From Streptomyces sp. NRRL B-24085 (GTDB lineage Bacteria > Actinomycetota > Actinomycetes > Streptomycetales > Streptomycetaceae): DNA of 64,000 nucleotides. Of this stretch, positions 24,361-47,583 are shown piece by piece. The notes beneath the pieces were generated by a model. It worked only from the letters and a program-made list of their open reading frames with translations, did no database searches and had not been told where the DNA came from. The stretch is taken from the NCBI RefSeq assembly GCF_001282115.1, contig NZ_LJBR01000040.1, forward strand, positions 62,001-126,000, in the 5' to 3' direction. Every line of letters starts with the position of its first letter. The first letter of the stretch is position 1. Both the position numbers and the translations under genes were made by a program.

Positions 24361-25389
24361 TCAGGGGACGTCGGGGTTGAGGAGGCCTTGCTGGGTGAGG
24401 AGGACTCCGAGTTGGAACCGGCTCTCCGCTCCGGTGGACTCCATCATGTCGGCGATGTGGCGGCGGACGCTGCGCAGGGACATGCCGAGGCGGCGGGCGA
24501 TGGTCTCGTCCTTGAGGCCGGCGCCCATGAGTTTGACGATGGTGCGGTCTATGTCCTTGGAGACCGCTTCGAGTCCGTCGATCGCGGCCTCGGAGAAGGG
24601 CTGCGCCAGGCTCCAGGTCTGCTCGAAGATGTCGCACAGGTACCGGACGATCGAGGGTTCCCTGATCAGCACGGCTCCCCAGGCGTGGGAGGCGTCGGGG
24701 ATGAAGGCGACCTCGCGGTCGTAGACGATCAGTCGTCCGAAGAGTTCGTGCGCGGTGCGGTACTGCGCGCCCAGCGCCGACACGGCGGCGACGTAGGACT
24801 GGCTCGGTCCGTTGAACCGTGCGGTGTGGTGGTAGAGCGTGCGCATCTGCACGCCCCGGCGCAGCAGTGCCGTGTCGCGGGCCAGCGCGTCGGCCAGCGC
24901 TTCCGGGTCGCGGCTGCCGCCCGGCTGGCTGGTCAGCAGCTCCCGCCGGCACTGCGCGGAGGCGCGGTTGAGCGCAACCCGCACCTCGTCGACCCGCGGG
25001 ATCAGCTCGAGGAGCGCGTTCCGTCGGCTCAGACCATTGACGTAGTGCTCGCGCAGACCGGCGAAGCGCTCGCGCACTTCTTCCAGCAGCCTCTTCTGGT
25101 TCCTGATCTTCTCTTCGATCGAGCTGGTCGCCACCGCGGCCAGCAGATCAGGATCCACCGCTCGCAACAGGACGGGATCCTCGCCCGACCGGTGCACCAA
25201 CCGCCGCTCCAGCAGCGCCTCCAGCGCCTCCTTGACCTCCTGAGGCGTTAAGTCCAGTTCGGCGGAGGCGGCGTCGACATCCATTCGCTCATGCACCGCG
25301 ACCCAGCCGTACACACTCGCCTCGGCTTTCGACGGGCGAGTGATCCCCGTCACGCCCAGGGCTCCGCCACCCGAAGAGATCTGCACCAC
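24361..25389 (-). CDS. TrmB/LuxR-type transcriptional regulator
   Basis: The protein is 342 residues from the GTG at 25389, where GAGAAAGG lies five bases upstream. The frame stays open to a TTG at 25479. The N-terminal region (about 10-70, with ASVYGWVAVHERMDVDAASAEL split over a winged helix) resembles TrmB-like DNA-binding domains. The middle is helical. The C-terminus is a LuxR-type helix-turn-helix (LKDETIARRLGMSLRSVRRHI) ending MMESTGAESRFQLG. Such two-headed regulators are common in Streptomyces, often near secondary-metabolite genes. Its target is unknown. Confidence 0.85.
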   Translation of the reverse strand: MVQISSGGGALGVTGITRPSKAEASVYGWVAVHERMDVDAASAELDLTPQEVKEALEALLERRLVHRSGEDPVLLRAVDPDLLAAVATSSIEEKIRNQKRLLEEVRERFAGLREHYVNGLSRRNALLELIPRVDEVRVALNRASAQCRRELLTSQPGGSRDPEALADALARDTALLRRGVQMRTLYHHTARFNGPSQSYVAAVSALGAQYRTAHELFGRLIVYDREVAFIPDASHAWGAVLIREPSIVRYLCDIFEQTWSLAQPFSEAAIDGLEAVSKDIDRTIVKLMGAGLKDETIARRLGMSLRSVRRHIADMMESTGAESRFQLGVLLTQQGLLNPDVP

Positions 25390-25575
25390 CAAGGCCTTTC
25401 TCACAGCGCCGACCAACTCGTCGGGGCACACACGGCAACGCCACCCAGCTTCCCCCACCTGTCCACAGAAGATCGACAAGTGGTTGCGCCTTTAACAAAC
25501 TTTGGCGGAGGCGTGTCGTACATCAACCCTTCGAGTCTCGCCCTCGGGCGTCATCCACGGACGAGGGACGACCGG

Positions 25576-26666: not shown

Positions 26667-26829
26667 TCCAGGGACCTGCCTCTGGTCTCCGGCCGGGTGA
26701 TCAACTGCGGGGCTTCGTCCCGCACACCACGGGCCCACGGCGTACGGCCGGGGCCCGTGTCCCCCACCGGACCGGCCAGGCGGGTGGCCTCTACACCGGC
26801 ACGTACCCGTGAAGCGAAGGACACGCCCC

Positions 26830-27537
26830 ATGCCCCATGGTTCCGGCGCAGGCCCGCTCCAACCGCAGACGGCTGCACCGCCGACGGCTCGCCGACGCGC
26901 CCGTCCGGAGGCGCCGGCCCACGCAGGACACCACCGCGAACCCCGGCAACCCGGCACCAGGCCCGTCGGGGCATCGGCTGCCGGCGCGGGGCTCGGCATC
27001 GGCCAGACACGGCGCACCGCGCTGCTTCTGCCCGACGGCCTGTCCTTCTCGGCGTGGTCGCAGCTCGGCCACCGGCTGCACCGCCTCGCGGACTCCGCCG
27101 CCTGGTGGGCGGGGGACTGGCTGGTGTACGGCAGCACGGCGTTCCCCGACCGCTACCGGCAGGCGGCCGAGGCGACAGCACTCGACTACCAGACGCTGCG
27201 CAACTACGCCTGGGTGGCACGCAAGGTCGAAGTCGGCCGCCGCCGGGCCGAACTGAGCTTCCAGCACCATCAGGAAGTGGCCGCCCTGGCACCCGACGAC
27301 CAGGACCACTGGCTGGGCCAGGCCGCCGAGCACGGCTGGTCGAAGGCCGAACTCCGGCACCGTCTGCGTGCGGTGAACGGAAGCACCTCTTCCCGCCCCA
27401 GACCCTCCACGCGCCTGCTGCTGGACGTGGACGGCGAGCGCTGGGGCAGGTGGCAGCGTGCGGCCGCCGCGGAGGACGGTGACGTCGCGGCATGGCTGCG
27501 CCGGTTGGCGGACCGGGCGGCGGACGCGAGCCGCTGA
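26830..27537 (+). CDS. LmbU-family pathway regulator
   Basis: This 235-residue protein starts at an ATG with GAAGGA eight bases upstream. After a disordered Ala/Pro/Arg-rich N-terminus (about 1-60) it has the family block: LPDGLSFSAWSQLGHRL, AWWAGDWLVYGS, YRQAAEATALDYQTLRNYAW and FQHHQEVAAL. LmbU is the DNA-binding activator of lincomycin biosynthesis and relatives occur in many actinobacterial clusters. An exact CTCGCCGGCGAG palindrome, containing the core reported for LmbU, lies downstream at 28982 before the precursor-peptide operon. The long N-terminal extension is unusual. Confidence 0.88.
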   Translation: MPHGSGAGPLQPQTAAPPTARRRARPEAPAHAGHHREPRQPGTRPVGASAAGAGLGIGQTRRTALLLPDGLSFSAWSQLGHRLHRLADSAAWWAGDWLVYGSTAFPDRYRQAAEATALDYQTLRNYAWVARKVEVGRRRAELSFQHHQEVAALAPDDQDHWLGQAAEHGWSKAELRHRLRAVNGSTSSRPRPSTRLLLDVDGERWGRWQRAAAAEDGDVAAWLRRLADRAADASR

Positions 27538-27800: not shown

Positions 27801-27931
27801 CCACCGGCCTGCCTGCGCACCGCGGTCAGGTGCGAAGGCGAGGTGCCGGTCCCGAGAACCTGTGACTGTTCGCCCGGTGATGACCGGGAGAGCCTTGAGG
27901 GGACAAGCCTGTCCCGGCCAGGAGGATGCAT

Positions 27932-28852
27932 GTGAACCGTCCGACTCTCGCTCGGTGGGTCGGTGACACCGACCGCTTCATGACGTCGTACTGGCGCAGG
28001 AAGCCGGCTGTCTTCCGGCCACCGGGAGGCGCACCCAGCCCGTTCGGGCTGGCCGACGCCGACGGCGCGCTCGCCAGTGGGTTCCTGCGCACGCCCTACG
28101 TCGAGATGGCGCGCGCGGAGGATCCCCTGGGCAGTGAGGCCTATACGACGGCACGCACCGTCCACTTCTCCTCCCACGAGGGATTCGCCGACGAGGCGAA
28201 GATCGGCAAGGCGCTGGCGGACGGTGCCACCCTGCTCCTGCGATGCATCGACCAGTGGCACGCGCCCACCGGTGAGACGGTCGCCGCGCTGTCGGGTGAA
28301 CTGGGTCTGGCCGTCGAGGCCTTCTGCTTCGTCACTCCGGCCGGACGGCAGGGCCTGCCCCTTCACCGCGACGATGCCGACGTACTCGTCGTACAGATCG
28401 AGGGAAGCAAGCAGTGGTCCGTCCACGAAGGCCCGGCCGACGGGGACTGGAAACCGGGCCCCTGCACGGGGGCCGAGCCCGCCGAGGTGTTGCGCGCGAC
28501 GGTGCGGGCCGGTGAAGTCCTGTACATACCGCGGGGGTTCGCCCACCAGGCGGTGGGAGACGGCGGTCTGTCGGCGCACCTGTCCCTGACGATCCGGGAG
28601 GTGGGCGTGGTCGAGCTGTTCCGTACGCTCCAGCGCACGGCCTTCGAGGGACTGAAGATGGCCCCCCGTCCCTTGGACGACCGGTCGATCACCGACGCTG
28701 CGGCCGAACTGATCGAGCGAGCCCGCGGCAGGCTTGCCGAGCTGACCCCTGAGCAGCTGGTGGACCTCGCACGGGCCTCCCAGCGGGCCAGAATGCCCGC
28801 ACCGCGACATGTGATCTCCCTGTCCGACATGGCTGCCGCTAACAAGAGCTGA
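27932..28852 (+). CDS. JmjC/cupin-type Fe(II)/2-oxoglutarate hydroxylase
   Basis: This 306-residue protein resembles the ribosomal-oxygenase branch of JmjC enzymes. Residues about 145-215 form the cupin with the HxD pair (LPLHRDDADVLVVQ) and distal His (VLYIPRGFAHQAV). A C-terminal helical and winged region follows. The family uses Fe(II) and 2-oxoglutarate to hydroxylate protein or peptide side chains. The GTG at 27932 is preferred because AGGAGG lies six bases upstream; the ATG at 27926 abuts that sequence. In this cluster a peptide or pathway intermediate is a plausible substrate, but this is inference. Confidence 0.85.
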   Translation: MNRPTLARWVGDTDRFMTSYWRRKPAVFRPPGGAPSPFGLADADGALASGFLRTPYVEMARAEDPLGSEAYTTARTVHFSSHEGFADEAKIGKALADGATLLLRCIDQWHAPTGETVAALSGELGLAVEAFCFVTPAGRQGLPLHRDDADVLVVQIEGSKQWSVHEGPADGDWKPGPCTGAEPAEVLRATVRAGEVLYIPRGFAHQAVGDGGLSAHLSLTIREVGVVELFRTLQRTAFEGLKMAPRPLDDRSITDAAAELIERARGRLAELTPEQLVDLARASQRARMPAPRHVISLSDMAAANKS

Positions 28853-29236: not shown

Positions 29237-29332
29237 ATGGAGAACAACCAGGTCGACATCACCGCCCTGACCGACGAGGAGCTCGACGACATCGTCGGCG
29301 GTGCGCTCGCGGTTCCGGCCAACTGCATCTGA
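29237..29332 (+). CDS. 31-aa precursor peptide with double-glycine leader
   Basis: The ATG has AAGGGA upstream. The acidic leader (DITALTDEELDDIVGG) has the LTDEELDxxxGG form recognised by C39 peptidase-containing ABC transporters, one of which is encoded next. Cleavage after GG would leave only ALAVPANCI, a nine-residue tail with a penultimate Cys. This is very short for a bacteriocin. It could be a modified-peptide core, a scaffold extended at its C-terminus, or a signal peptide. A stable hairpin begins 12 bases after the stop. Confidence 0.85.
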   Translation: MENNQVDITALTDEELDDIVGGALAVPANCI

Positions 29333-29343
29333 CGGCCGCCGCT

Positions 29344-29388
29344 CCGGGCGGTCCCGTCGGCCGGTTCGCCGGCCAAGGGACCGCCCGG
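29344..29388 (+). terminator. Compound hairpin with TTCG tetraloop after the precursor gene
   Basis: An outer 12-bp stem (CCGGGCGGTCCC and its complement) encloses an inner 6-bp stem GGCCGG-TTCG-CCGGCC. The position between precursor and transporter genes suits a partial terminator or mRNA-protecting structure that raises precursor expression relative to the enzymes. The 150-bp gap contains no gene. Confidence 0.8.
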
Positions 29389-29482
29389 GCATGGAAGCGC
29401 CACGTTTCCCCCGCAGTACCGAGAGTGGGCCGGGGACCGTTCCCCGGCCCACCGCCGCGGCTCCCAAGGACAGAGCTGAACG

Positions 29483-31771
29483 ATGAGTGAACAACGCTTC
29501 CGCACCCAGGCTCTCGAGCACCACCACGGACGGGACGGTCTCGGCCCCGTGTTCGGTCACGAACCGCAGACGTGGCAGCCCGACCGGAGCCCCGCCGCAC
29601 GCGTCCGGGCCCTGGGCGCGGCCCTGCGAGACCTGCGCCGCAGGCGGAACGTCCCGGTCTGCTTCCAGACCCAGGTCAGCGACTGCGGGCCGGCCTGTCT
29701 GGTCATGACGCTCCGCCACCACGGGATCGACGTGCATCTGGACGAGGTCCGTGACCAGGTGAACTCCGGACGCAACGGCGCCTCCGCCCGCACGCTGCTC
29801 GACCTGGCCCGCAGCCACGGTCTCGACGGGCGGGGAGTGCGCACCGATGTCGAGGGGCTGCGGAAGCTGCCGCCGGGGAGCATCCTGTTCTGGAACTTCA
29901 ACCACTTCGTCGTGCTCGAACGGGCCACCGAGGCGTTCACGGACATCGTCGATCCCGCGTTCGGCCGGCGTCGGCTCAGCCATGACGCGGTCTCCACCGC
30001 GTTCACCGGCGTGGCGCTGGAGTTCACGGCCCCCCTTGGCGAGACAAGGCGCCCGCTGTCCGGCGGGTTCGGCTCGGCCGGTCCCTGGCACCGGATGCGG
30101 CATTTCCTGCCCAGCGCCAGGGAGTTCGGTCGCATCGGAGCGCTGTCCGTCGTTCTCATGGGCCTGGAAGCCGCCCTGCCGGCAGCGCTCAGCTTCCTCG
30201 TCGGGCACGTCATGACCGGCGGACGGCAGCACATGCTGTCGCTCACCGCCCTGGTGCTGGCCCTGGTGACCATGGTGTTCCTGACGGCACAGCTGACCCG
30301 TGCCTTCGTCCTGACCCGACGGCAGTCGCTGGTCGAGAAACGTATGACATGGGGTGTCGTAGCCCATCTGACGTCCCTGCCCTACGACTTCTTCACCCTG
30401 CACAACTCCGGTGACCTGGCGATGCGGGCACGCACCAGCAGCACCCTCACCCAGGTGCTGAGCCTGTCCGCGCTGTCGGCCGTCTTCGACAGCCTCCTCA
30501 TCGCGGGTTACCTGGTGGCGGTCCTGATCGTCGACCCGGTCCTCGCCTCGGTCGTCGTGGCTCTGATCACCGTCCAGATCGGTGTCATGGTGACGGCCTG
30601 GCGACGGCAGGTCCGGCTGAGCCACGAAGTACTGGAACGCCAGACCCGTACCCAGAACGAACTGGTGCAGCTGCTGGAGAGCATGACCTCCCTCAAGGCG
30701 GCCGGAGCGGAGGGCGCGGCCGCGGAACGCTGGTCACACGCCCTGATCCACGAGATCAACAAGCGGCAGGACGCCCGCCGTTCGCTGTCCGTGTCCACCG
30801 CCCTCAGCCGCACCCTGCAGTTCGCCGCGCCGCTCGCCGTGGTGGTGATCGGCATCTGGCGCGTGCTGTCGGAACACGGATCGCTCGGCGGAACCCTGGC
30901 CTTCATGGCGCTGACCACCGCGCTGTTCGCCCCGCTGGAGAGCGTCTTCGACACGGCCGCCCAGCTCGCCGCCGTCCGCCCCGCACTGGCCCGCCTCGAC
31001 GACGTCCTGCGGGCCGAGCCCGAACCCCGGGGCACACTCGGCGCCCCGTCGACGCCCGGACAGCCGGCCGCCGTCTCCGTCGAGAACGTGTCCTTCACCT
31101 ACCGGGGCGCCTCCCGGCCGGCCCTGTCCGACGCCCGACTCCAGGTACAGCCCGGGCAGTTCGTCGCCGTGCTGGGCCGGTCCGGCTCGGGCAAGTCCAC
31201 GCTCGGCATGCTGCTGGCCGGGCTGTACGAGCCAGGCTCCGGCACGATCCGCGTCGACGGACGCGACCTCGCCGCAGTGGACCGTTCCGCCTACCGGCGC
31301 CAGATCGGCTACGTCAACCAGAACGCCCACCTCTTCGGCGCCTCCATCCGCGACAACATCGCCTTCGGCGCCGACGACCTCGACCACGACGACCTGGTGG
31401 AGGCGGTCCGGCTCGCCCGGATCCACGAGGAGATCACCGCGCTCCCCATGGGCTACGAAACCCTGGTGAACCCGGGCGGGCACGGACTGTCGGGCGGCCA
31501 GCGCCAACGGATCGTCCTGGCACGGGCGCTGGCCCGCAAACCCAACCTGCTCATCCTCGACGAGGCCACCAGCGCCCTCGACCCCGCCCTGGAGGAAGAG
31601 ATCTTCGACGGACTGCTGCGGGCGGGCATCACGGTGATCGCCATCGCGCACCGGCTCACCGTGCTGGACCGGGCCGACCAGGTGTTCGTGGTCCGTGACG
31701 GCAGGATCGTGGAGTCGGGCTCCCCGGCTTCGCTCAGGGCGGCGGGAGGCGAGTTCCTGTGCCTGGCCTGA
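29483..31771 (+). CDS. Peptidase-containing ABC transporter (C39, PCAT type)
   Basis: This 762-residue fusion has three parts. The first is an N-terminal C39 peptidase (about 55-180) with catalytic Cys68 in QVSDCGPACLVM, His141 in NHFVVLE and Asp157 in VDPAF. The second is a six-helix ABC membrane domain (about 210-500). The third is an ATPase domain with Walker A GRSGSGKST, signature LSGGQRQRI and Walker B LLILDEATS. It should cleave the double-glycine leader of the upstream peptide in the cytoplasm and export the product. An extra about 50 residues precede the peptidase. The downstream condensation-like gene overlaps its end by 13 bp. Confidence 0.93.
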   Translation: MSEQRFRTQALEHHHGRDGLGPVFGHEPQTWQPDRSPAARVRALGAALRDLRRRRNVPVCFQTQVSDCGPACLVMTLRHHGIDVHLDEVRDQVNSGRNGASARTLLDLARSHGLDGRGVRTDVEGLRKLPPGSILFWNFNHFVVLERATEAFTDIVDPAFGRRRLSHDAVSTAFTGVALEFTAPLGETRRPLSGGFGSAGPWHRMRHFLPSAREFGRIGALSVVLMGLEAALPAALSFLVGHVMTGGRQHMLSLTALVLALVTMVFLTAQLTRAFVLTRRQSLVEKRMTWGVVAHLTSLPYDFFTLHNSGDLAMRARTSSTLTQVLSLSALSAVFDSLLIAGYLVAVLIVDPVLASVVVALITVQIGVMVTAWRRQVRLSHEVLERQTRTQNELVQLLESMTSLKAAGAEGAAAERWSHALIHEINKRQDARRSLSVSTALSRTLQFAAPLAVVVIGIWRVLSEHGSLGGTLAFMALTTALFAPLESVFDTAAQLAAVRPALARLDDVLRAEPEPRGTLGAPSTPGQPAAVSVENVSFTYRGASRPALSDARLQVQPGQFVAVLGRSGSGKSTLGMLLAGLYEPGSGTIRVDGRDLAAVDRSAYRRQIGYVNQNAHLFGASIRDNIAFGADDLDHDDLVEAVRLARIHEEITALPMGYETLVNPGGHGLSGGQRQRIVLARALARKPNLLILDEATSALDPALEEEIFDGLLRAGITVIAIAHRLTVLDRADQVFVVRDGRIVESGSPASLRAAGGEFLCLA

Positions 31772-33114
31772 ACTCCGCGACGCCCGGCCCGCAGACGGCG
31801 GAGGCCGTGCCGTTCACCTACGAACAGGAGTGGTACGACGCCAACGTCCGGCAGACCTATGTCCACAGGAACGTACGCCTGTCGTACGAGATCCTCGGTC
31901 GGCTGGACCGGAACCTGTTCGAGCAGGCCGTGCACCGTTTCGTCGCTCGCCACGACGCCGTGCGCATGGAGGTCCTGCCGCTGAACGAGCGCACCCCGAT
32001 GGCTGCGCAGCGGGTCCGCCCCCTGGGGCCGGACGAGCGCGTCGTGCACCACCAGGAGGTCAAGGCGGCCTCCGCCGAGCAGTTCGGCGTCTACGCCGCG
32101 GCCGTGCTGACACGCGACTTCCTGCAACCGTGGACCACGGGCCACCGCCCGTACGCCCTGCGCCTGTTGAGGTATTCGAGCGAACACCACGCCTTCCTGG
32201 CGACCTTCCAGAACCTCGTCTTCGACGGCCGTGCCCACCACCTGTTCGCGCAGGAGATCTGGCGCGACTACGAAGCGCTGCGCCGGCGCCAGGAGATCCC
32301 CGGCACGGCCCCCTCCTTCGCCGCGGCGGCCCTGCGCCAGCGCACCGCCTTCGGACCGAGACACCTGCGACGGGCGCGGGACAGCTGGTACGACCGGGCC
32401 GGCTTCGCCGGACTCAACCCCTGGCACCGCCCCGACCACGCGGCGGCCAGTGAGGACGGCGCCGTCCCCGCCGAACTGGGTGCCGCCCAGGTGGCCGCGT
32501 TGCGGCAGGCCTGCGAGCGTGAGCACTGCACCCTGTTGCAGTGGGTCGTGGCGGCCTTCGCCCGCGCCATCGCCCAGTGCACCGGCCGCAGGCGGCTGAG
32601 CCTGTGGACGTCCATGGACTCCCGGCGCGCCGCCGAGCGGGACGTCGTCGGGATGTTCGCCGGTGTCGCCCCGCTCAAGGTGGAGCACGCCTCGGCCCCG
32701 CTCCCCGACGTCAGGGCCGAGGTGAGCGGACAGATCCTCGAGGCGCTGCGCTACCAGCAGCTCAGCGGGCGGCAGTTGCGCACGATGCTGCGCGAGCTGG
32801 CTCCCGACGAGGGGTGGCTGGGGCGGGACATCCACATCAACCTGCGCCGGTTCGAAGGGGACCACCAGCAGACCCGGCACGACGGCGACCTGCGGGTGAC
32901 GGCCGACGCCTATCCGCTGCGGCGCGTCACCTTCGCCAACGCGTCCGCGCTGCAACTGCGATGCGACGAATACCGCGACCGCCTGTTCATCAACCTGCTG
33001 TTCGACGGACACCGTGTGGGCCGGCAACTGGCCCAGGCCATCCTGGGATGCCTCACGGCCGACCTCACCGTCGACTGCGGCACGGACGTCCGCACACCGA
33101 GGAAGTCATCATGA
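31759..33114 (+). CDS. Stand-alone condensation-domain-like protein with altered active-site motif
   Basis: This 451-residue protein has the condensation/acyltransferase fold. Its start overlaps the transporter gene, with GGGAGG upstream of the GTG. The N-terminal part (VPFTYEQEWYDA, RHDAVRMEV) and later segments (SMDSRRAAE, MFAGVAPL) match the C-domain layout. The catalytic HHxxxDG appears as QNLVFDG, with Asp-Gly kept but both His replaced. It may be a non-canonical amide or ester-forming enzyme or a recruitment protein. The carrier-protein gene overlaps its stop, so the acyl donor probably comes from that carrier. Confidence 0.82.
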   Translation: MPGLNSATPGPQTAEAVPFTYEQEWYDANVRQTYVHRNVRLSYEILGRLDRNLFEQAVHRFVARHDAVRMEVLPLNERTPMAAQRVRPLGPDERVVHHQEVKAASAEQFGVYAAAVLTRDFLQPWTTGHRPYALRLLRYSSEHHAFLATFQNLVFDGRAHHLFAQEIWRDYEALRRRQEIPGTAPSFAAAALRQRTAFGPRHLRRARDSWYDRAGFAGLNPWHRPDHAAASEDGAVPAELGAAQVAALRQACEREHCTLLQWVVAAFARAIAQCTGRRRLSLWTSMDSRRAAERDVVGMFAGVAPLKVEHASAPLPDVRAEVSGQILEALRYQQLSGRQLRTMLRELAPDEGWLGRDIHINLRRFEGDHQQTRHDGDLRVTADAYPLRRVTFANASALQLRCDEYRDRLFINLLFDGHRVGRQLAQAILGCLTADLTVDCGTDVRTPRKSS

Positions 33115-33416
33115 GCGAACCCACGCCCCCGAGCGCACCGGACGCCGACGCACTGCTCGCCCTGGTCCTGGCCACCGCCGGGGAGGTGTTCGGGCACCAG
33201 GTCGTCGCCACGGACGACTTCTTCGCCCTGGGCGGCGACTCCGTGGCGGCCGTGGAACTGGCCACCAGCCTCGAAGAACGGCTCGACCTCGACGTCGACT
33301 CCCGGCTGATCTTCAGCACCGACAGCATCGGCGACCTCGCGCACCACCTCTTGCGGGCGGCCGGGGAGACGGCTACGACCGCGGACCGGGGCCCGGCCGT
33401 GGGGGAGGACCGGTGA
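33111..33416 (+). CDS. Acyl/peptidyl carrier protein
   Basis: This 101-residue protein has the phosphopantetheine site FFALGGDSVAAVEL, with Ser44 as the attachment residue. The GGDS form is typical of peptidyl carrier proteins. The ATG overlaps the stop of the condensation-like gene, and its own stop overlaps the next GTG. It likely carries the acyl or aminoacyl group loaded by one of the two AMP-forming ligases that follow. Confidence 0.92.
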   Translation: MSEPTPPSAPDADALLALVLATAGEVFGHQVVATDDFFALGGDSVAAVELATSLEERLDLDVDSRLIFSTDSIGDLAHHLLRAAGETATTADRGPAVGEDR

Positions 33417-34828
33417 AGCCCTACCTGTGGGACCCCTGGCAGACCGCCGCCGAACTGCCCAGCCGCACGGCGGTCGTGGCCGACGGGGAGCACTGCACGT
33501 TCGCCGAGCTGACCGCCCGCGCCGACGCGCTCGGCCGTGGGCTGCGCTCGGCCGGAGTCCAGGACGGCGCGGTCCTCACCACGGACCTGCCCACCGGCCC
33601 CCGCTTCTTCGCCCTCGCCCTCGCCGCCCTGCGGTACGGCTACGGCCTGCTGCCCGTCGCCCCCTCCCTGTTCGCCTCCTCAACGGCTGCCCGGCTGATG
33701 ACCGACGCCCGAGCCGTCCTGCACGTCGGCGGCACGGACCTGGGCCCGGCTGCCGCCACCGCAGCACTGCCCGTCCCCTCCCTGACCGACGAGGCACTGG
33801 CGTCCACCGCCAACCTCGGCCCGCTGCCGTTGGCTGCCCGCGCCGGCCACCTGGCCTACGCCACCTCCGGCACCACCGGCGAACCGCAGGCCGTGCCGCG
33901 CGCCCGCCCACCGCGTCCCTACCGCGGTGTCGCCGTCGACCACCGGTACGCGGCGGGCCTCGTCTTCGGAGCGCACGTGATGGGCAACCCCGCCTACCAC
34001 CTCGGCACCCTCGGCCCCGCCCTGTACGCCCTCCAGGCCGGCAGCACGGTCGTCGTGCAACGCACCTGGTCCGCCGACGGATTCGCTGAGCTCGTGGACC
34101 GGCACGGCGCCGACAGCGCGTTCCTCGGCATCGACCAGCTCGTCGACGCCGTGGTGGCGGACCGGTCCCCGGCCCGGCGGCTGCGCGTCCTCTTCCACGG
34201 CGGTTCCGCCTGCCCACCCGCCGTGAAACGATCCGCGATCGACCTGTTCGGCCCGGTCCTGCACGAGTACTACGGCACTTCCAAGAGCACCCTCACCCAG
34301 ATCACCACCCCCGAATGGCTGCGGCACCCGGGCTCCGTCGGCCGGCCGCTGCCCGGCATCCGCATCGAGATCGCCGAGGACGGCCGCCCCCTGCCACCCG
34401 GCGAGCCCGGTGAGATCTGCGTGAGGCTGCGGACGGCCGACCGCGACAGCGCCGACCCGGAGTTGCTGCACACCGGGGACCTGGGCTTCCTCGACGACGA
34501 CGGCTACCTGTTCGTCGTCGGACGCAAGACGGGCTTGCAGCAGGACAGCCTGGACACCGCACACCTCGAGTACCAGATCCGCATGCTGCCGGGTGTCGCC
34601 GACGTCGCGGTCACCGGCGACCCCGTTCCGGTGTGCTACGTGGAGACCCTGCCGGGCCAACAGGAGCGCACCGCACGGAAGGTCGTGAGGGCGGCGGAAC
34701 TGCTGGGCTTCCCCCGGCCCACGACCAGGATCGTCACCCAGGGCACCCTGCCCAGGACCCCCAGCGGGAAGATACGGCGGGCCGGACTTGACACCTGGTG
34801 GGCGGCCACGGGGGAAGCGACGGCGTGA
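33413..34828 (+). CDS. AMP-forming acyl/amino-acid ligase (ANL superfamily)
   Basis: This 471-residue enzyme is short for the ANL family. It has the phosphate-binding loop YATSGTTGEPQAV (Gln in place of the usual Lys in the G-x-P-K part), HEYYGTSKSTLTQI, HTGDLGFLDDDGYLFVVGR and the C-terminal catalytic Lys in LPRTPSGKIRR. GGGGGAGG precedes the GTG. It probably adenylates a carboxylic acid and loads the adjacent carrier protein. Substrate specificity cannot be read by eye. Confidence 0.88.
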   Translation: MKPYLWDPWQTAAELPSRTAVVADGEHCTFAELTARADALGRGLRSAGVQDGAVLTTDLPTGPRFFALALAALRYGYGLLPVAPSLFASSTAARLMTDARAVLHVGGTDLGPAAATAALPVPSLTDEALASTANLGPLPLAARAGHLAYATSGTTGEPQAVPRARPPRPYRGVAVDHRYAAGLVFGAHVMGNPAYHLGTLGPALYALQAGSTVVVQRTWSADGFAELVDRHGADSAFLGIDQLVDAVVADRSPARRLRVLFHGGSACPPAVKRSAIDLFGPVLHEYYGTSKSTLTQITTPEWLRHPGSVGRPLPGIRIEIAEDGRPLPPGEPGEICVRLRTADRDSADPELLHTGDLGFLDDDGYLFVVGRKTGLQQDSLDTAHLEYQIRMLPGVADVAVTGDPVPVCYVETLPGQQERTARKVVRAAELLGFPRPTTRIVTQGTLPRTPSGKIRRAGLDTWWAATGEATA

Positions 34829-36609
34829 GCGGCGCGATCCGCAGACCGCAGGCGACGGCGTACGACTGGCTGCGACAGCACGCACACGCCCGCCCGCAGG
34901 CCGCGGCCGTCACCGAATGGCGGGAGGGCGCCGTCGTCCGCACGGTCACGTTCGCCGAACTCCTGACGCTCGCCGATCGAACAGCCGCGGCCCTGACCGA
35001 ACGGGGCGCACGGCACGGTGACCGGGTCGTCCTCCTGCTGCCCAACGCCTTGTCCTTCCCCGCGACCCTGCTCGCCGCGTTCGCCGCCGGGCTGATCGCC
35101 GTGCCGGCCCCGCCGCTCGCCGGGTCCGGCACGGCCGCGGTGCACCGGCTGCGGGGTATCGCCGCCGACTGCGAGGCCCGCTGGGTCGTCACCACGCAGC
35201 CGTGGGCGCAGCAGACGGAGGGCGTGCTCCGCGAGACAGGGCCGTCGTTCGGGGCCGGACAGGTCCCGCCGGCGACGGTGCACACCTGGGAGGACCTGTC
35301 CGCTCCGGCGCCGCCCGGTGGCCCGCCCCTCCGGCGCCCACCCGGGCCGACGGCGGACACGGTGGCCTTCCTCCAGTACACGTCGGGCTCGACCGGGCGG
35401 CCCAAAGGCGCCGTGATCACCCATCGGGCGGTCGCCGCGCAGTGCGCGCAGGCAGCCCGCGCCTACCGGGAGAGGAGCGAGGACACAGCCGTCACCTGGG
35501 TGCCGCTCTCCCACGACATGGGCCTGGTCACCGGCGTGCTGCGGCCCCTGCACAGCGGATACGCCTCGGTGCTGCTGGCTTCGCGCGAGTTCGCCCGCTC
35601 ACCGCTGTCCTGGCTGACCGCGCTGTCCGAGCTGCGCGGAACGCTCTCCAGCGCACCCGACTTCGCCTACGGCCACTGCGTCCGCAAGATTCCCGCCGCC
35701 GCGGCGGCCTCGCTCGACCTGAGCCACTGGCGCGTCGCGCGCGACGCCGGAGAGGTCGTCCGGGCGGACACACTCGACCGGTTCACCGCGCACTTCGCTC
35801 CCGCCGGCTTCCGCGCACACTGCCTGTGCCCTTCCTACGGCATGGCGGAGGCGACACTCACGGTCACCACGGCCACTCCACGACGTCCGGCCCGGCGCCT
35901 GGCGGTGCGCAGGGGCGCTCTGCAGGCCGGGAACATCCGGCCGGTCACCGGTCCGCACGACGCCGAGGGCGGGAAGGTCACCACGCTGCTGTCCTCCGGA
36001 ACGCCGCTGGACGACACCGAGGTGGTGGTGCGGGACCGCGACGGGCGGCGCTTGCCGGACGGACACATCGGCGATGTGTGGATCGCCGGACCCCAGCTCT
36101 TCGAAGGCTACTGGGGGAGGAGAGCGCACCCCCGCGACATCCGGCGGCTGCATCAGACCGGGGACCGCGGCTTCCTCCACGAAGGGCACCTGTTCGTCCT
36201 CGGACGCGTGGACGACACGGTCGTACACCAGGGGCGCAACTACTACGCGGCGGACATCGCGGACGCCCTCGCCGATCTGCCCGGGCTGCGCCCCGGACGC
36301 ACCGCGGTCTTCCAGACGGCCGGACCTCCGCGGTCCGAGCCCTGCGGTCGGTCGAGCGCCACCTACGGGCCGCAAGCCGTGCCGGCCGCGCACATGTGTC
36401 TGGTGGCCGAGCGCGACCACGCCGCCCCCACTGAGGAGCGCAGCACCGAGACCGCCCGCGCCGCGCGGCAGCGCCTGGCCGGAGTGCTCGGCCTGTTCGT
36501 CAAGGAGGTCGTCCTGGTCCCGCCGGGGACGCTCCCGGTGACGACCAGCGGCAAGGTCCGCGTCAACGAGACCCGACGCCGCTATGAGGCGGGTCTGCTG
36601 GGGCGTTGA
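34825..36609 (+). CDS. Fatty acyl-AMP ligase-like enzyme (FAAL type)
   Basis: This 594-residue ANL enzyme has the A3 loop LQYTSGSTGRPKGAV, the FAAL-type WVPLSHDMGLV, CPSYGMAEATLTV, and LGRVDDTVVHQGRNYYAADI, where GRNYY is characteristic of FAALs. SGKVRVNETRRRYE holds the C-terminal Lys. FAALs activate fatty acids and pass them to carrier proteins rather than CoA. Coupling to the preceding gene (GTGA overlap) suggests lipid or acyl loading onto the small carrier protein. It is the last gene of this plus-strand block. Confidence 0.9.
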   Translation: MSGAIRRPQATAYDWLRQHAHARPQAAAVTEWREGAVVRTVTFAELLTLADRTAAALTERGARHGDRVVLLLPNALSFPATLLAAFAAGLIAVPAPPLAGSGTAAVHRLRGIAADCEARWVVTTQPWAQQTEGVLRETGPSFGAGQVPPATVHTWEDLSAPAPPGGPPLRRPPGPTADTVAFLQYTSGSTGRPKGAVITHRAVAAQCAQAARAYRERSEDTAVTWVPLSHDMGLVTGVLRPLHSGYASVLLASREFARSPLSWLTALSELRGTLSSAPDFAYGHCVRKIPAAAAASLDLSHWRVARDAGEVVRADTLDRFTAHFAPAGFRAHCLCPSYGMAEATLTVTTATPRRPARRLAVRRGALQAGNIRPVTGPHDAEGGKVTTLLSSGTPLDDTEVVVRDRDGRRLPDGHIGDVWIAGPQLFEGYWGRRAHPRDIRRLHQTGDRGFLHEGHLFVLGRVDDTVVHQGRNYYAADIADALADLPGLRPGRTAVFQTAGPPRSEPCGRSSATYGPQAVPAAHMCLVAERDHAAPTEERSTETARAARQRLAGVLGLFVKEVVLVPPGTLPVTTSGKVRVNETRRRYEAGLLGR

Positions 36610-36782: not shown

Positions 36783-38081
36783 CTAGACCGGTCGCAGAGG
36801 GCAGGTGCGGAACGACGTCATGCCGAAGTCGGGGATGCGCTCCACGGCTGCGGCGTCGACGCGCTCCAGCACCCGCGCCTCCGCCAGGGCCGACCACGCC
36901 ATGCGCAGATGGAGCCGGGCCAGCGACGCGCCAAGGCAGTAATGGCGGCCACGTCCGAAGGCCAGGTGCCCCGCCGCTTGCTCGCCCGTCGCCACCGGCG
37001 GCCGGCCCGCGCTGTCTGACACCGCCGTCGCTCCCGCCGCGCCTGTCACCGGGCAGCGGGACATCGCCTCGCCGCCTGCCGTGTCATGCCCGGCGGAGGC
37101 CAGGATCAGCACCACCCGCTGCCCGGTGACGAAGGGGTGCCCGCGGTAGTCGAAGTCCGCCTTCACCTCCCGGGGCGCGAAGTGGAACGGAGGATCGAAA
37201 CGCAACGCCTCCTCCACCTGGGCGTCCGCCCACACCTCCGGGTCCGCAAACGCGGCGCCGGCGCTGTGGTCCGTACCGGGCGCGGGCATCTCCCGGGACT
37301 GCGCATGCCGCAGGGCCATGACGCAGGTGGCGGTCGCGGTGGGCTCGACACCGCCGGTGACCAACTGCGCCACCATCGCCACCACGTCGTCCAGTTCGAC
37401 CGTCTGCTCCTCAACGAGGGCCCGCGCCAGAGCCTGGGCGACCGGGGTGACGGGATCGTCCAGCATGCGCGAGACGACGTAGCCGGTCAGTTCCTCCACC
37501 GCGACGCGCGCGGCCCCGGCCAGCCGTACGTCGACCCCGGTGCTGCCCAGATAGCGCACCAGAGCGTCCGACCACCGCACGAGCCGGGGGCCGTCCTCGT
37601 CGGGGGAGGTACCGAGCAGACGGCTCAGTGTCCAGGTCGCCGCGGGCCGGGCGAAGCCGGTCAGCAGATCGGCGGGCCCCGCGCCGAGCCCGCGGGCCAG
37701 CGAGCGGGTGACCTCCCTGATGGCGTCACCCATCGGGGCGACGGCCGTGCGGGACAAGGCGGGTTGCAGCCGTCGGCGCAGCAGCTGCTGCGCCGGCCGG
37801 TCGGAGAAGACCGGCCACCGGGCGAGGTGGTCCTCCACCGGTACGACGTCGCGACGCTCGGGCAGCGGAAGGCTGTGCACCCAGTCCGGGTAGGTGTGCG
37901 CCCCGAGTCGTGGATCGCGCAGCAGCTCGACCGTGTCGTCGCGGCGGCTGACGTACCAGGATCGGGTCTCCTCGTCCCAGTGCACCGGGCTGCGCTCCCG
38001 GAGCAGGCGGTACAGCGGGTACGGGTCGAGCCGGCTGGCGGGGGTGACGACGGGCGGCAGGGCCTGGTCGCGGACGGTCAT
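36783..38081 (-). CDS. Cytochrome P450 with atypical I-helix
   Basis: This 432-residue P450 has the K-helix ExxR (EEALRFDPP) and the haem loop HLAFGRGRHYCLGASLARL with Cys382. The I-helix segment reads LVTGGVEPTATA: the usual acid-alcohol pair (E/D-T) is Glu-Pro. The stretch before the haem loop carries an uncommon insert with CPVTGAAGATAVS. Both features suggest unusual oxygen activation or a non-standard reaction. The ATG overlaps the stop of the radical SAM gene, so the two enzymes are co-expressed. Confidence 0.9.
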   Translation of the reverse strand: MTVRDQALPPVVTPASRLDPYPLYRLLRERSPVHWDEETRSWYVSRRDDTVELLRDPRLGAHTYPDWVHSLPLPERRDVVPVEDHLARWPVFSDRPAQQLLRRRLQPALSRTAVAPMGDAIREVTRSLARGLGAGPADLLTGFARPAATWTLSRLLGTSPDEDGPRLVRWSDALVRYLGSTGVDVRLAGAARVAVEELTGYVVSRMLDDPVTPVAQALARALVEEQTVELDDVVAMVAQLVTGGVEPTATATCVMALRHAQSREMPAPGTDHSAGAAFADPEVWADAQVEEALRFDPPFHFAPREVKADFDYRGHPFVTGQRVVLILASAGHDTAGGEAMSRCPVTGAAGATAVSDSAGRPPVATGEQAAGHLAFGRGRHYCLGASLARLHLRMAWSALAEARVLERVDAAAVERIPDFGMTSFRTCPLRPV

Positions 38082-39127
38082 CGCGCACCGGCGCTCTCGT
38101 ACTCGATGCTCTCCATGGCCTGGCAGTCCGTCCAGCAGATCGCGCAGTCGTTGCGCCTGATCCGGTCCCTGGCCTGCTGGGCGAGGCTGCCCGTCCACAG
38201 GGGCAGGATGTCGTAGCCGGTGTCCCGCACGTTGCCGATGACGTCCTCGGTCATGGTGACGCAGGGGGCGATGCCGCCGTAGGGGTCGATCCACAGCGAC
38301 GCGAACATGGCGTAGCACGGAACGATCATCTCGTTCGGTGAGTTGACGCTCTGCGGGATGCGCTCGACGAAGGGCAGCGTCCGCTCGAAACGGTACTCCC
38401 GGTTCAGCTGCTCCACCGTGCGGATCAGCTTCTGCCTGCCCTCCAGGGTGTTGTTCTTCGCGTAGTAGTGACCGGAGGCGACGGGCCGGAAGGCGAAGTC
38501 GTCCGGTTCCCTGACAAGGCCGGTGCGCAGTGCGTCGGCCATGAGGGCCGGCAGCTCGTCGACGTTGTCGTCCATGATGGTGAAGCTGATCTGCTGGCTC
38601 AACTGCGGGTAGGACTGCCGCAGTTCAGCGAGGTCCCGCAGCAGGGCGCGGGCGCGGTCGTAACCGTTCCTGACCCCGCGGATCCGGCCGTAGGTGTCGG
38701 AGAAGCCGTCCAGGGAGACGCTCACCACGAACAGCGAGTCCTCCGGGGCCTCGGTGAGGATCTTCCGCACCATGCCCAGAATCCGTTTCGGCTGGAGCCC
38801 GTTGGTGGTGACCGCGACGAAACCGGTCCTTCGGAGAACCATGCTCAGAAGTTCCACCACGCCTTCCTTGAGGAAGGGTTCGCCGCCGGTCACGTCAATG
38901 GACGTGACGCCCTGGCTGAGGGCGGATTCGGTGACCCGCAGCCATTCCTCGCCGGTCAGTTCGGTGCTGTAGAGCCCCTTTTCCTTCCGGTATATCTCCC
39001 AGATCGAGCACATGGTGCACCGGGAGTTGCACAGATTCGTGATCTGCATGCTCATGCGTCGCGGAACGGGACGCGGAAGCCCGGACTGGCGAAGTCGTCG
39101 CACGTCAGCGGCCATTGGATCCATCAT
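38078..39127 (-). CDS. Radical SAM enzyme with SPASM-like C-terminus
   Basis: The protein is 349 residues if the ATG at 39127 is used; ATGs at 39124, 39115 and 39055 are alternatives and no strong ribosome-binding site decides. The cluster motif CxxxCxxC is CNSRCTMC (Cys33, 37, 40). The SAM-binding GGEPF follows in VTGGEPFLKEG. The C-terminal part has spaced cysteines (VPCYAMF, APCVTMTEDVIGN, CAICWTDCQ) like a SPASM or twitch domain binding further Fe-S clusters. Such enzymes modify peptides, sugars or amino acids. The gene is divergent from the SAM synthetase gene, a fitting source of its cosubstrate. Confidence 0.9.
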   Translation of the reverse strand: MMDPMAADVRRLRQSGLPRPVPRRMSMQITNLCNSRCTMCSIWEIYRKEKGLYSTELTGEEWLRVTESALSQGVTSIDVTGGEPFLKEGVVELLSMVLRRTGFVAVTTNGLQPKRILGMVRKILTEAPEDSLFVVSVSLDGFSDTYGRIRGVRNGYDRARALLRDLAELRQSYPQLSQQISFTIMDDNVDELPALMADALRTGLVREPDDFAFRPVASGHYYAKNNTLEGRQKLIRTVEQLNREYRFERTLPFVERIPQSVNSPNEMIVPCYAMFASLWIDPYGGIAPCVTMTEDVIGNVRDTGYDILPLWTGSLAQQARDRIRRNDCAICWTDCQAMESIEYESAGAR

Positions 39128-39193
39128 GGTCAACACGCTAGGCGGCGCCGGTATATTCGCGGAATACAAAGAATCCGCCCCTCGCTCTCGTGC

Positions 39194-40501: not shown

Positions 40502-40503
40502 CG

Positions 40504-41670
40504 ATGCGCACCGATACGGCATCCGCAAGGGCCGTGACGCCTCCCGCCACGGCAACGGCCCTGGCGGACTGGCTCCTTGACCGCCCCCGCGTCACCACCG
40601 GCCCGCACGCCGGCGGGGTACGGGGGAGCGTCCGCGGCCCGGACCACGACTACGTCTATCCGGAGATCGCCGGGTACTACCTGACCTGGCTGTCCTTCCT
40701 CGAAGCCACCGGCGCGCCGCAGGCCGCGCAGGCCGACGCCGTCCGGGCCGGGGTGATCGGCTGGCTGGCACGGGAACTGGCCGCGGAGCACGGCCCGCGC
40801 ACGCGCCGCTACCTCCGCCCCGCGGCCGAACCGGCCGACGAGTGGCGCAACCACGCCCTGTTCGCCTTCGACCTGGGCATGGTGCACCGGGGACTCGCGG
40901 CCGCGCTTCCGGCGGGCGCCGGGGCCGAGCAGTCGGACGCCCGGGCGCCGTTGGCCAGGACCGCCGCGTTGCTGGACCGGCTGCGGGACCGCGACGGCAG
41001 CTGGCTGGCGTGCCTGCCCCACCCCGGGGCCCCGGCACCGCCACCGCGCTGGTCGACCACCGCGGGCCCGCATCTGCTCAAGGTCGCCGGGGGAGTGCTG
41101 GCGCTGGCGCACGGGACCGGGACGCCGTCCCTCACCGCGGCGGCGACGGCCACCCTGCACCGCCACGCGCCCGGCCTCGTGGCGGGACTGCCCGCGATGA
41201 GCCACCCGGCGCTGTACGCACTGGAAGGACTCCTCCAGGCGGAGCTGGCCGGACACCACGCCTACCGGGGGCAGTTGGAGGAGTCCTACGCCCTGCTGCT
41301 GGCACAGGTCACCGACGGCGTCCTGCCCGAGTACGCCCGGCAGCCGGACAGCCGGGTACGCAGCGACGTCATCGCCCAGATGCTGCGCGTCGGATCCGTA
41401 CTCGCCGCGCAGGACCGGCTGGACACCGCGGGCAGGCACACGCTCCCCCTGCTCGCCCGGCGGCTGACGGCGATGGTCTCGCCCCTGGGTGCACTGCCGT
41501 TCGAGGACGGCGGCACCGGTCCCGCCGAGCCCGCCGTGTCCCGTGCGTCCGCGGTGGCCGGCCACGGCAACACCTGGTGCGCGATGTTCGCCCATCAGGC
41601 CCTGACCTTCCACGACCGGGTGGCCCGCGGGCAGCCCCTGCCCCGGGAGTGGATCCGGCTGCTGGTGTGA
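40504..41670 (+). CDS. Alpha/alpha-toroid-like protein of unknown function
   Basis: This 388-residue protein starts two bases after the SAM synthetase stop. It is helical and rich in Ala and Leu, with features of the six-hairpin alpha/alpha-barrel group (YVYPEIAGYYLTWLSFLEAT, RDRDGSWLAC, HPALYALEGLL, GHGNTWCAMFAHQAL). Proteins of this shape include terpenoid cyclases, prenyltransferase-like and glycan-processing enzymes. No DxDD, zinc or clear catalytic motif is visible, so the function is unassigned. Its position between SAM synthetase and a sugar epimerase gives no decisive clue. Confidence 0.7.
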   Translation: MRTDTASARAVTPPATATALADWLLDRPRVTTGPHAGGVRGSVRGPDHDYVYPEIAGYYLTWLSFLEATGAPQAAQADAVRAGVIGWLARELAAEHGPRTRRYLRPAAEPADEWRNHALFAFDLGMVHRGLAAALPAGAGAEQSDARAPLARTAALLDRLRDRDGSWLACLPHPGAPAPPPRWSTTAGPHLLKVAGGVLALAHGTGTPSLTAAATATLHRHAPGLVAGLPAMSHPALYALEGLLQAELAGHHAYRGQLEESYALLLAQVTDGVLPEYARQPDSRVRSDVIAQMLRVGSVLAAQDRLDTAGRHTLPLLARRLTAMVSPLGALPFEDGGTGPAEPAVSRASAVAGHGNTWCAMFAHQALTFHDRVARGQPLPREWIRLLV

Positions 41671-41725
41671 AGCCGGCGGAGCAAGACGCCCGGGCGCACG
41701 GCCCCATCGCGAAGGAGTGACCCAC

Positions 41726-42904
41726 ATGCAGCGGCGGACCGTCGCGCTCGTCTTCGGCACCCGGCCGGAGGCCATCAAGATGGCTCCCCTGATCAAGGGA
41801 TTCGCCGCACGCGAGGAGTTCCGCGCGCTGGTGGTGACCACAGGACAGCACACCGACATGGTCGAACAGGCGCTGGCGGAGTTCGGTGTCGAAGCCGACA
41901 TCACCCTCGGCGTGCGACGCGAGCGGCACACCCTCGCCGAGCTCACGGGCGCCGTCCTCGCCGGCGTCGACGAGGTGCTGTCCCGGTACCGCCCGCAGGC
42001 ACTGCTCACCCACGGGGACACCACCACCACCCTGGGCGCCAGCCTGGCGGCGTTCTACCGGATGGTGCCCCTGGTCCACGTCGAGGCCGGCCTGCGCTCG
42101 GGCAACCGCTGGGCCCCCTACCCGGAGGAGATCAACCGCCGGGTCACCTCCCTGGTGACCAACCTCCACCTCGCTCCGACCCCCCAGGCCCGCGACAACC
42201 TCCTCGGCGAGGGCGTGGACCCGTCCACCGTGGTGGTCACCGGCAACACCGTGCTGGACGCCATGCACCTCCAGCTCGGCTCGGCCGACGCCTGGGCCGA
42301 TCCCGCGCTGGACGTCCTCGACCGCGATCCCCGCCGCATGGTGCTCCTGACCGTCCACCGCCGTGAGTCGTGGGGCACCGCGATGAGCAGGATCGCCCGC
42401 ACCTTCGCCGAACTCGCCGACCGGCATCCCGACATGCTGATCGTCGCCTGCGTACACCCCAACCCGCGGGTCCGCGACGCGCTGCTGCCCGCACTGCGCG
42501 GGCGGCCCAACATCGTGACCGTGGGGCCCCAGCCGTACTCCACCTTCCTGCGCCTGATCCGCAGGGCGCACATCGTGGTGACGGACTCCGGGGGAGTGCA
42601 GGAGGAGTGCACCGGCCTGCACACGCCGGCGCTGGTGCTGCGGGAGGTGACGGAGCGGCAGGAAGCCACCGCCACGGGCGGGGTGGCGCTGGTGGGCACG
42701 GAACCGCACCAGGTGCGCGCCGCCGTGGAAGCCCTGTGGGACGACCCCCACCGGCACGCACGGATGGCGGCCGCGGTCAGCCCGTTCGGTGACGGGCGCG
42801 CCACCGACCGCTGCGTCGCCGCGGTCGCCGGACTGCTGGGGCTCGGCGACGGGCCACTGAGCGAGTACGAACCCCTGCTGACGAACGAAGGAACACCGCG
42901 ATGA
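41726..42904 (+). CDS. wecB: UDP-N-acetylglucosamine 2-epimerase (non-hydrolysing)
   Basis: This 392-residue enzyme has the family motifs GTRPEAIKMAPLIK, HGDTTTTLGASLAAFY, HVEAGLRSGNRWAPYPEE, TVHRRES and DSGGVQEE. It interconverts UDP-GlcNAc and UDP-ManNAc. The ATG at 41726 has AAGGAG eight bases upstream and is preferred to the GTG at 41717. With the glycosyltransferase further down, it indicates that the product or a cell-wall factor carries a ManNAc-derived sugar. The stop overlaps the next start. Confidence 0.93.
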   Translation: MQRRTVALVFGTRPEAIKMAPLIKGFAAREEFRALVVTTGQHTDMVEQALAEFGVEADITLGVRRERHTLAELTGAVLAGVDEVLSRYRPQALLTHGDTTTTLGASLAAFYRMVPLVHVEAGLRSGNRWAPYPEEINRRVTSLVTNLHLAPTPQARDNLLGEGVDPSTVVVTGNTVLDAMHLQLGSADAWADPALDVLDRDPRRMVLLTVHRRESWGTAMSRIARTFAELADRHPDMLIVACVHPNPRVRDALLPALRGRPNIVTVGPQPYSTFLRLIRRAHIVVTDSGGVQEECTGLHTPALVLREVTERQEATATGGVALVGTEPHQVRAAVEALWDDPHRHARMAAAVSPFGDGRATDRCVAAVAGLLGLGDGPLSEYEPLLTNEGTPR

Positions 42905-43530
42905 CCTCCGCCAGGCACACCACCTACCTCGTCCGGCACGCGCGGACGGCGTACAGCGCCCGTCACGTCGTCAACGGTTCCCTGAAGGTGGACGTGCCCC
43001 TCGACGCGGCGGGCACGGCCTCCTGCCACGCCCTGTCCGCCCCGTGGCTGGACACCGTCGCCACCTGCGTCACCAGCGGCTTCACCCGCACCCGGCAGAC
43101 GGCGCACGCACTCCTCGGCGACCGGCACGTCGTCCTGCACAGCGACCACCGGCTCGACGAGATCGACTACGGCGTCTTCGAAGGGGGCCCGTGGACCCGG
43201 TACGGGGACTGGCTCGCCGAAGCGGGCCGGGACGCCACCCCGCCGGGCGCCGGCGAGTCCTGGAGCGGGGCGGTCGCGCGGATGCTGAGCGGCCTGTCCG
43301 CCTGTCTCGAGGTGCCCGGTCCCCGTCTGGTGGTGGGCCACGGCCTGCTGGGTTCGGTGGTGCGCTGGCTGATGACGGCGCCTCCCGGGGAGCGTCTGTC
43401 CCGGCCCTTCCTGCCGGAAGCCCCCTGTCTGGAGCCGGTCGTCCTGGACGACGACGAGCTGACGCGCCTCCTGAGCGACGCCGGTGAGCGCCTCGGTCTC
43501 GCGGCGGTGTCCGAGGCGGCCGGGCGATGA
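42901..43530 (+). CDS. Histidine phosphatase superfamily protein
   Basis: This 209-residue protein has the phosphoglycerate-mutase-like core with LVRHARTAYS (catalytic Arg12-His13; the common RHG reads RHA), TSGFTRTRQTA, LDEIDYGVFEGGP and the second His in VVGHGLLG. It likely dephosphorylates a small intermediate, possibly a sugar or nucleotide phosphate of the pathway. ATGA-type overlaps join it to both neighbours. Confidence 0.9.
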   Translation: MTSARHTTYLVRHARTAYSARHVVNGSLKVDVPLDAAGTASCHALSAPWLDTVATCVTSGFTRTRQTAHALLGDRHVVLHSDHRLDEIDYGVFEGGPWTRYGDWLAEAGRDATPPGAGESWSGAVARMLSGLSACLEVPGPRLVVGHGLLGSVVRWLMTAPPGERLSRPFLPEAPCLEPVVLDDDELTRLLSDAGERLGLAAVSEAAGR

Positions 43531-47582: not shown

Positions 47583-47583
47583 C

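Follow-up and report, generated by a model that had tools for sequence, protein, structure and literature searches.

What could an exported ribosomal peptide of only nine residues be for? The question is raised by a small gene in a 64,000-nucleotide stretch of the genome of Streptomyces sp. NRRL B-24085 (contig NZ_LJBR01000040.1, positions 62,001 to 126,000; this whole stretch is hereafter the window, and supplies the coordinates below), which encodes the leader MENNQVDITALTDEELDDIVGG followed by the core ALAVPANCI (29237..29332, forward strand; read as an open reading frame (ORF) and supported by homologue search and alignment). The precursor belongs to a family with short and variable cores, and it is accompanied by a conserved cassette which includes a C39 exporter and a miniature nonribosomal peptide synthetase (mini-NRPS); this cassette is a module that is attached to different small-molecule pathways. 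The explanation that we favour, at a probability of roughly 45%, is that the ribosomal peptide is modified by the mini-NRPS and serves to carry or export payloads which inhibit aminoacyl-tRNA synthetases, in a Trojan-horse-like manner.

A double-glycine precursor with a nine-residue core

The precursor ORF has 31 codons followed by TGA, with its ATG at 29237 and a Shine-Dalgarno-like AAGGGA 5' of this start. An in-frame start upstream, at 29153, would give an ORF of 59 residues; the homologues align from the Met at 29237. The leader is short and acidic and ends in GG, as double-glycine leaders of C39-exported peptides do, and the gene of a complete C39 peptidase-ABC exporter, such as accompanies these peptides, begins 150 bases downstream of the ORF. 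The view of the sequence-only reading that this is a canonical double-glycine precursor is thus borne out. The core consists of nine residues, with Cys in the penultimate position and Ile at the C-terminus, and has a calculated mass of about 870.46 Da. A search of the source genome (8.96 Mb, 692 contigs) returned a single good copy of the precursor, the second match (E 0.74) being noise. To judge from the sequences, the ORF is beyond chance: homologous leaders with short tails adjoin related transporters in other genomes.

A strong stem-loop (GGGCGGTCCC...GGGACCGCCC; 29333..29432, forward strand), recognised by folding with a shuffle control, immediately follows the stop codon of the precursor. 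Folding of the first 100 bases beyond this codon gives -62.9 kcal/mol, with a z of -3.5 against 100 dinucleotide shuffles. The hairpin is not universal, since 16 of the 24 distinct stretches from homologues have a z under -2, a value not reached in G293, G105b, G159, G058, G758 or three of the four G171 copies (G and L numbers are our labels for genomes and for fetched stretches). Such a structure may possibly separate expression of the precursor from that of the exporter.

A family of short and variable cores

Family membership was defined by the leader, a short tail and a nearby exporter. The search with the peptide in 394 genomes of the taxonomic family at E 1 returned 62 genomes, mostly noise; further precursor searches at E 0.01 matched 7 of 394 genomes of the class and 16 of 392 of the genus. 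Scanning a genome collection with the condensation protein of the cassette gave eight loci, four of which had already been seen (Streptomyces FH025, Kitasatospora MAA19 and MBT63, and S. hyaluromycini) and four of which were new (Ag109_O5-1, Kutzneria, Actinoplanes and S. shenzhenensis), the precursor being present in all four of the latter; G758 was added through the genus search.

The close type comprises 13 distinct precursors in 14 genomes. Besides ALAVPANCI, their cores are FTVITPNCSAA, QFAIAAHCVI, QFSIAAHCVI, QFSVSASCVI, QFGISLTCVI, HGVHVDKACI, GAVTTNKACI, TLPVNAHCVS, TFHVDSKCVI, AFSVDPACVI, AGTVTPDGCPAS and SATVPYGCCIVLDGC; they are 9-15 residues long, all 13 contain Cys, and their C-termini vary (I, S, A or C). 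Kutzneria has three tandem precursors (L041:7158-7634) with AFSVDPACVI identical in all of them. Mean pairwise identity within the close type is 72% over the last 18 leader residues versus 25% over the core, which answers the question, posed by the sequence-only reading, of whether the tail is conserved or variable: the leader is conserved and the core is not.

A distant type adds 12 precursor rows from 10 loci. Among the first seven rows (five loci) are the cores AKVNGHCVA (G179), AAGRCVM (G064) and GSVAPMTAICG (G195). G171 carries four tandem precursors (L032, about 10.1-10.9 kb) with the cores HAVVVPANLSA (twice), HAVVVPACVSC and HALAVQPAMSVAP, three of the four lacking Cys; they adjoin NRPS genes and a C39 exporter. 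A second locus of G058 encodes the distant-type core SAAPSGVLCLTSCL. Weaker matches contributed AVINRGCVS (G197), GLAINGSVKFP (G155), SGGFVTPLGKP (G209), NGTLEPLRNCI (G314) and NALVARPARCVS (G149, at a contig end); each of these five later members has an exporter or condensation match in its fetched stretch, and their cores span 9-12 residues. At G314 (L112, 7505-11212), where the core ends in RNCI, there is a condensation match together with a JmjC match at 51%, and no C39 exporter match was found in 16 kb.

In both types together, the core is 7-15 residues long in 25 of 25 rows, so that the nine-residue core of the window is real as well as unusual. We looked for long-core homologues and for loss of the frame in relatives, which had been set beforehand as grounds for abandoning it; long cores appeared only in two weak model matches, G814 and G847, where the leader is similar and no cassette gene was matched within the surrounding 20 kb. 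Together with the uniformly short cores, this excludes a truncated long bacteriocin. Beyond the members listed here, weak matches were followed up for G730, G814, G847, G091, G136 and G087, and none of these six is a member as judged by exporter and condensation gene; stretches L073-L075, L077 and L078 were listed or scanned with the query set only. G087 (L113, about 7.9 kb) encodes a GG peptide with the nine-residue tail AVHPVSQRY near C39-like exporters, without a condensation match.

The biosynthetic cassette

The exporter gene (29483..31771; Pfam Peptidase_C39 at 1e-27, ABC_membrane and ABC_tran) is predicted from its domains to encode a protein that cleaves after GG and exports the core. 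It is followed by genes for a standalone condensation-domain protein (31759..33114; Pfam and alignment), in which the HHxxxDG motif reads FQNLVFDG, a peptidyl/acyl carrier protein with a GGDS site (33111..33416; Pfam), an acyl-adenylating enzyme closest to acyl-CoA synthetases (33413..34828; Pfam and searches), hereafter ligase 1, and a fatty acyl-AMP ligase-like protein (FAAL; 34798..36609, start uncertain; Pfam and searches). All are on the forward strand and overlap head to tail, from the exporter through the FAAL; the gene of a JmjC-type oxygenase (27926..28852, forward strand; Pfam) precedes the precursor.

Exporter, condensation, carrier and ligase 1 genes accompany the precursor in 14 of 14 genomes of the close type, four of these having come to light by way of the condensation gene. 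The G131 contig breaks off within ligase 1, and in G105 the cassette is split across two places of one contig (L019 and L021), each with its own precursor. In the distant-type G179, ligase, carrier, condensation and exporter genes likewise surround the precursor. The remaining genes are less constant: the FAAL was matched in 10 of 13 assessable close-type genomes, with no match in the fetched flanks of Kutzneria, Actinoplanes and G758, and the JmjC gene in 11 of 14, with no match in G293, Actinoplanes and G131 (whose stretch is truncated by a contig end). The cassettes of G199 (L028) and Actinoplanes rectilineatus (L043) adjoin NRPS genes with a similar, formyltransferase-like start, as read by eye.

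In nine aligned close-type condensation sequences, HH of the motif is replaced by QN, NN or DN; the AlphaFold model of this protein has a mean predicted local distance difference test score (pLDDT) of 52.8. The best scores of ligase 1 are with acyl-CoA synthetases, amino-acid adenylation domains scoring lower and below the cut-off. Among 12 full sequences, ligase 1 is nearly invariant around its presumed pocket, and because of this near-invariance the acid that it activates is probably the same throughout the close family, whatever the neighbours make. Activation of the peptide C-terminus by ligase 1 was also considered; the varied C-termini of the close type weigh against it. In one report (PMC12707348), the JmjC-domain protein of a cluster for a ribosomally synthesized and post-translationally modified peptide (RiPP) is treated as an ornithine hydroxylase, which sets a precedent for ribosomal peptides as substrates of JmjC enzymes.

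Aminoacyl-tRNA synthetases beside cassettes

A second seryl-tRNA synthetase (SerRS) is encoded in the window (46314..47582, forward strand; identified by searches and genome comparison), as is expected beside the clusters of producers of SerRS inhibitors such as albomycin. A better-scoring SerRS lies elsewhere in the source genome; the cluster enzyme is 40% identical to it and has a different loop at the presumed motif 3. A synthetase or a paralogue of one stands beside the cassette in 8 of the 14 close-type genomes, the window included, a count obtained with a restricted set of queries, Pfam scans of selected proteins and inspection by eye, in loci that are not independent. In three of them (G272, G758 and S. 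shenzhenensis) it is a fused alpha-beta glycyl-tRNA synthetase (GlyRS), which in the first two is additional to a dimeric GlyRS encoded at another place in the genome. An asparaginyl-tRNA synthetase (AsnRS)-like protein and an S66 peptidase accompany the cassettes of G058, G293 and G105, the best solved relatives of the G058 peptidase being MccF entries, and a SerRS lies near the Kutzneria cassette. The loci in which the queries used matched no synthetase contain, where read, sugar, radical-SAM, cyclitol-like or NRPS genes. A 414-residue neighbour in G058 has an AlphaFold pLDDT of 38.5; Foldseek returned prolyl-tRNA synthetase (ProRS) matches for this poor model and sequence searches gave nothing useful, so that the label 'ProRS-like', based on Foldseek and a motif reading, is tentative.

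The neighbour sets also occur without the cassette. Relatives of the short alanyl-tRNA synthetase (AlaRS)-like protein of the window are present in 21 other genomes of 295 Streptomyces. In all seven 20-kb loci fetched from these 21, the genes for S-adenosylmethionine (SAM) synthetase, histidine phosphatase, SerRS and AlaRS-like protein occur in that order; the cassette genes have no match in the seven loci, save one weak match to the ATPase region of the exporter. Relatives of the AsnRS-like protein are found in 14 of the 295 genomes, G293 included. Five other such loci were fetched; two contain S66, one with a fused GlyRS and one with a second phenylalanyl-tRNA synthetase (PheRS). The loci that combine the AsnRS-like protein and S66 with a second PheRS or a fused GlyRS (L104:7693-15175 and L105:1075-10747) are likely synthetase-inhibitor pathways. 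In nine of the genomes that have an AsnRS-like gene, a search at E 1e-100, run without a positive control, returned no C39 exporter. The same search found no exporter match in G760, where an AsnRS-like gene is followed by a P450 gene and by a JmjC gene that the contig end cuts off after its start (L106, 2881-12338), with a threonyl-tRNA synthetase-like gene nearby as read by eye.

Neighbouring genes in the window

A putative payload operon on the forward strand, whose genes overlap or sit close from the first to the last, spans 39290-48774 and includes the second SerRS. It opens with the SAM synthetase (PF01941; 39290..40501; Pfam), followed by a protein of unknown family (40504..41670), for which neither Pfam nor the other searches run gave a match, a member of the UDP-GlcNAc 2-epimerase family (41717..42904), a member of the histidine phosphatase superfamily (42901..43530), a GMC oxidoreductase (43527..45080) and a group 1 glycosyltransferase (45077..46321), these four assigned by Pfam. 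After the SerRS it closes with the short AlaRS-like protein (47584..48774), found by searches and without a Pfam match. Between cassette and operon, on the reverse strand, lie a cytochrome P450 gene (36783..38081; Pfam and searches) and, overlapping it, a gene for a radical SAM/SPASM protein (38078..39136; Pfam and searches). P450s at 28-37% identity, whether orthologous or not, occur in the stretches fetched from 8 of the 13 other genomes of the close type.

Regulatory genes flank these blocks. A GerE/LuxR-type regulator (24361..25479, reverse strand; Pfam) has homologues at 47-50% identity near the G105, G131 and G159 cassettes, and a small protein of uncertain start (26809..27537, forward strand), which we take to be an LmbU-like regulator, is common to three other cassette loci. 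A regulator of the Streptomyces antibiotic regulatory protein (SARP) type with a BTAD domain (49510..50364, forward strand; Pfam) follows the operon, and a sulfotransferase gene (50342-51241) comes directly after it.

Discussion

Under the Trojan-horse reading, the adjacent C39-ABC exporter would remove the leader and leave a core of about nine residues, which the co-encoded mini-NRPS would have modified before export. Ligase 1 would activate an acid, which would be held by the carrier protein and then placed on the core by the condensation-domain protein; in the close type the conserved Cys is the most likely site. The FAAL, JmjC and P450 proteins would provide optional further steps. The pathway of the window, from the SAM synthetase to the AlaRS-like protein and including the second SerRS, probably makes a SerRS inhibitor, for which the peptide would be the vehicle both on leaving the producer and on entering target cells, comparable to microcin C or albomycin. 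We prefer a ribosomal carrier peptide joined to such payloads because this one model accounts for the exporter and the mini-NRPS, for the shortness of the core, and for neighbours that change and synthetases that recur. Its bolder form, in which the modular cassette joins interchangeable synthetase inhibitors to a gene-encoded peptide some ten residues long and so defines an actinobacterial Trojan-horse family with a mini-NRPS instead of MccB, is a more tentative proposal. In both forms we infer the chemistry, the conjugation of peptide with payload, the attachment site, the payload and the target. As to the earlier guesses, a modified core fits best, a condensation-domain protein, a carrier and two adenylating enzymes being co-encoded; the sequence-only reading was right about precursor and exporter and silent on these genes and on the synthetases.

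Several observations weigh against this explanation. That the peptide and the neighbouring pathway make one molecule is suggested, not proven, by gene data. The canonical catalytic His is missing from the condensation protein, and Cys, present in 8 of the 12 distant cores, is absent from 4, which weakens it as a universal attachment site. That ligase 1 activates a payload acid is made less plausible by its conservation across varied neighbours. Neither an MccB/ThiF-type protein nor a Peptidase_S66/MccF-like hydrolase was found in the 20 chosen window proteins scanned with Pfam. With the queries used, no synthetase match was obtained in 6 of the 14 close-type loci and in 10 of the 10 distant-type loci, and the check that a synthetase is an additional copy covered the source genome (G000), G272 and G758. 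Finally, the AsnRS-like and AlaRS-like proteins are short and may serve in biosynthesis, not in resistance.

The main competing explanation, which we regard as unlikely, is a modified peptide pheromone: the mini-NRPS would acylate the core, and the product, once exported and cleaved, would regulate the neighbouring biosynthetic genes. This would account for one cassette beside different pathways and agrees with the short, largely hydrophobic cores, as well as with the GerE/LuxR-type, SARP and presumably LmbU-like regulators near the cassettes here and in relatives and the XRE-like regulator that adjoins the Kutzneria cassette (by eye). Several modifying enzymes would however be a heavy investment for a signal, no receptor constant across loci was noticed (no systematic receptor search having been made), and the recurring synthetases and the MccF-like hydrolase would be left unexplained. 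Next in order, and likewise improbable, is an independent modified (acylated) antimicrobial peptide, the synthetase-linked pathway then being a separate cluster. The cassette is indeed self-contained, the neighbour set occurs without it and the conservation of ligase 1 is independent of the neighbours; yet 8 of 14 cassettes, in four neighbour contexts, adjoin a gene for a synthetase or for a protein that resembles one, which speaks for a connection, on a simple count over non-independent loci.

The sequence-only reading had also proposed a scaffold for C-terminal extension, and we consider it doubtful that the core serves for building or extending a small molecule that is later released. Its variability, the carrier and adenylating enzymes, and synthetase-like proteins that could supply activated amino acids are in keeping with such a role. 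Nevertheless, no peptide aminoacyl-tRNA ligase (PEARL) of the LanB type was recognised in the 20 scanned proteins, although an unrecognised one is conceivable at 40504-41670 and 47584-48774, where the proteins have no Pfam match, and C39 export would take the core out together with the product. That the ORF arose by chance, or is what remains of a longer bacteriocin precursor, is hardly credible and already contradicted: the very short core and the two long-core leader matches might hint at it, but the 25 short-cored rows, the tandem copies in Kutzneria and G171 and the missing cassette genes around G814 and G847 tell against it.

If the Trojan-horse explanation holds, the cassette marks a searchable RiPP/NRPS hybrid family in which the target (SerRS, GlyRS and others) can be predicted from the synthetase genes nearby and in which the carrier peptide is gene-encoded and exchangeable; it would also raise the question of how a condensation-domain protein acts on a ribosomal peptide when it lacks the usual catalytic His. 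If the peptide is a signal instead, a ribosomal pheromone that is modified and linked with antibiotic clusters of Streptomyces would be new to our knowledge. No description of the precursor family was found in the open-access literature searched, which leaves most subscription journals outside.

Among known systems, microcin C is reminiscent of this one in its very short ribosomal peptide, in the suspected synthetase-inhibitor payload and in the MccF-like hydrolase of three relatives. It differs in that a double-glycine leader and a C39 exporter are found here, in actinobacteria, and a mini-NRPS takes the place of the MccB/ThiF adenylyltransferase; the microcin C precursor has about seven residues, no leader and a terminal Asn, whereas here a leader is present and the core ends in Ile. 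Albomycin shares the second SerRS gene beside a Streptomyces biosynthetic cluster and possibly Trojan-horse delivery; its carrier is a siderophore, while a ribosomal peptide would be the carrier here, and its other biosynthetic genes are different. With C39-exported double-glycine bacteriocins and lanthipeptides the system has in common a leader ending in GG and a C39-ABC exporter adjoining the precursor, but it departs from them in its nine-residue core, in the condensation, carrier and ligase genes and in the lack of a lanthionine synthetase among the 20 scanned proteins. Lipidated RiPPs such as lipolanthines, goadvionins and selidamides resemble it as ribosomal peptides with a probable acyl modification; they presumably rely on GNAT-type acyltransferases, in contrast to the condensation-domain protein, carrier and adenylating ligases encoded here.
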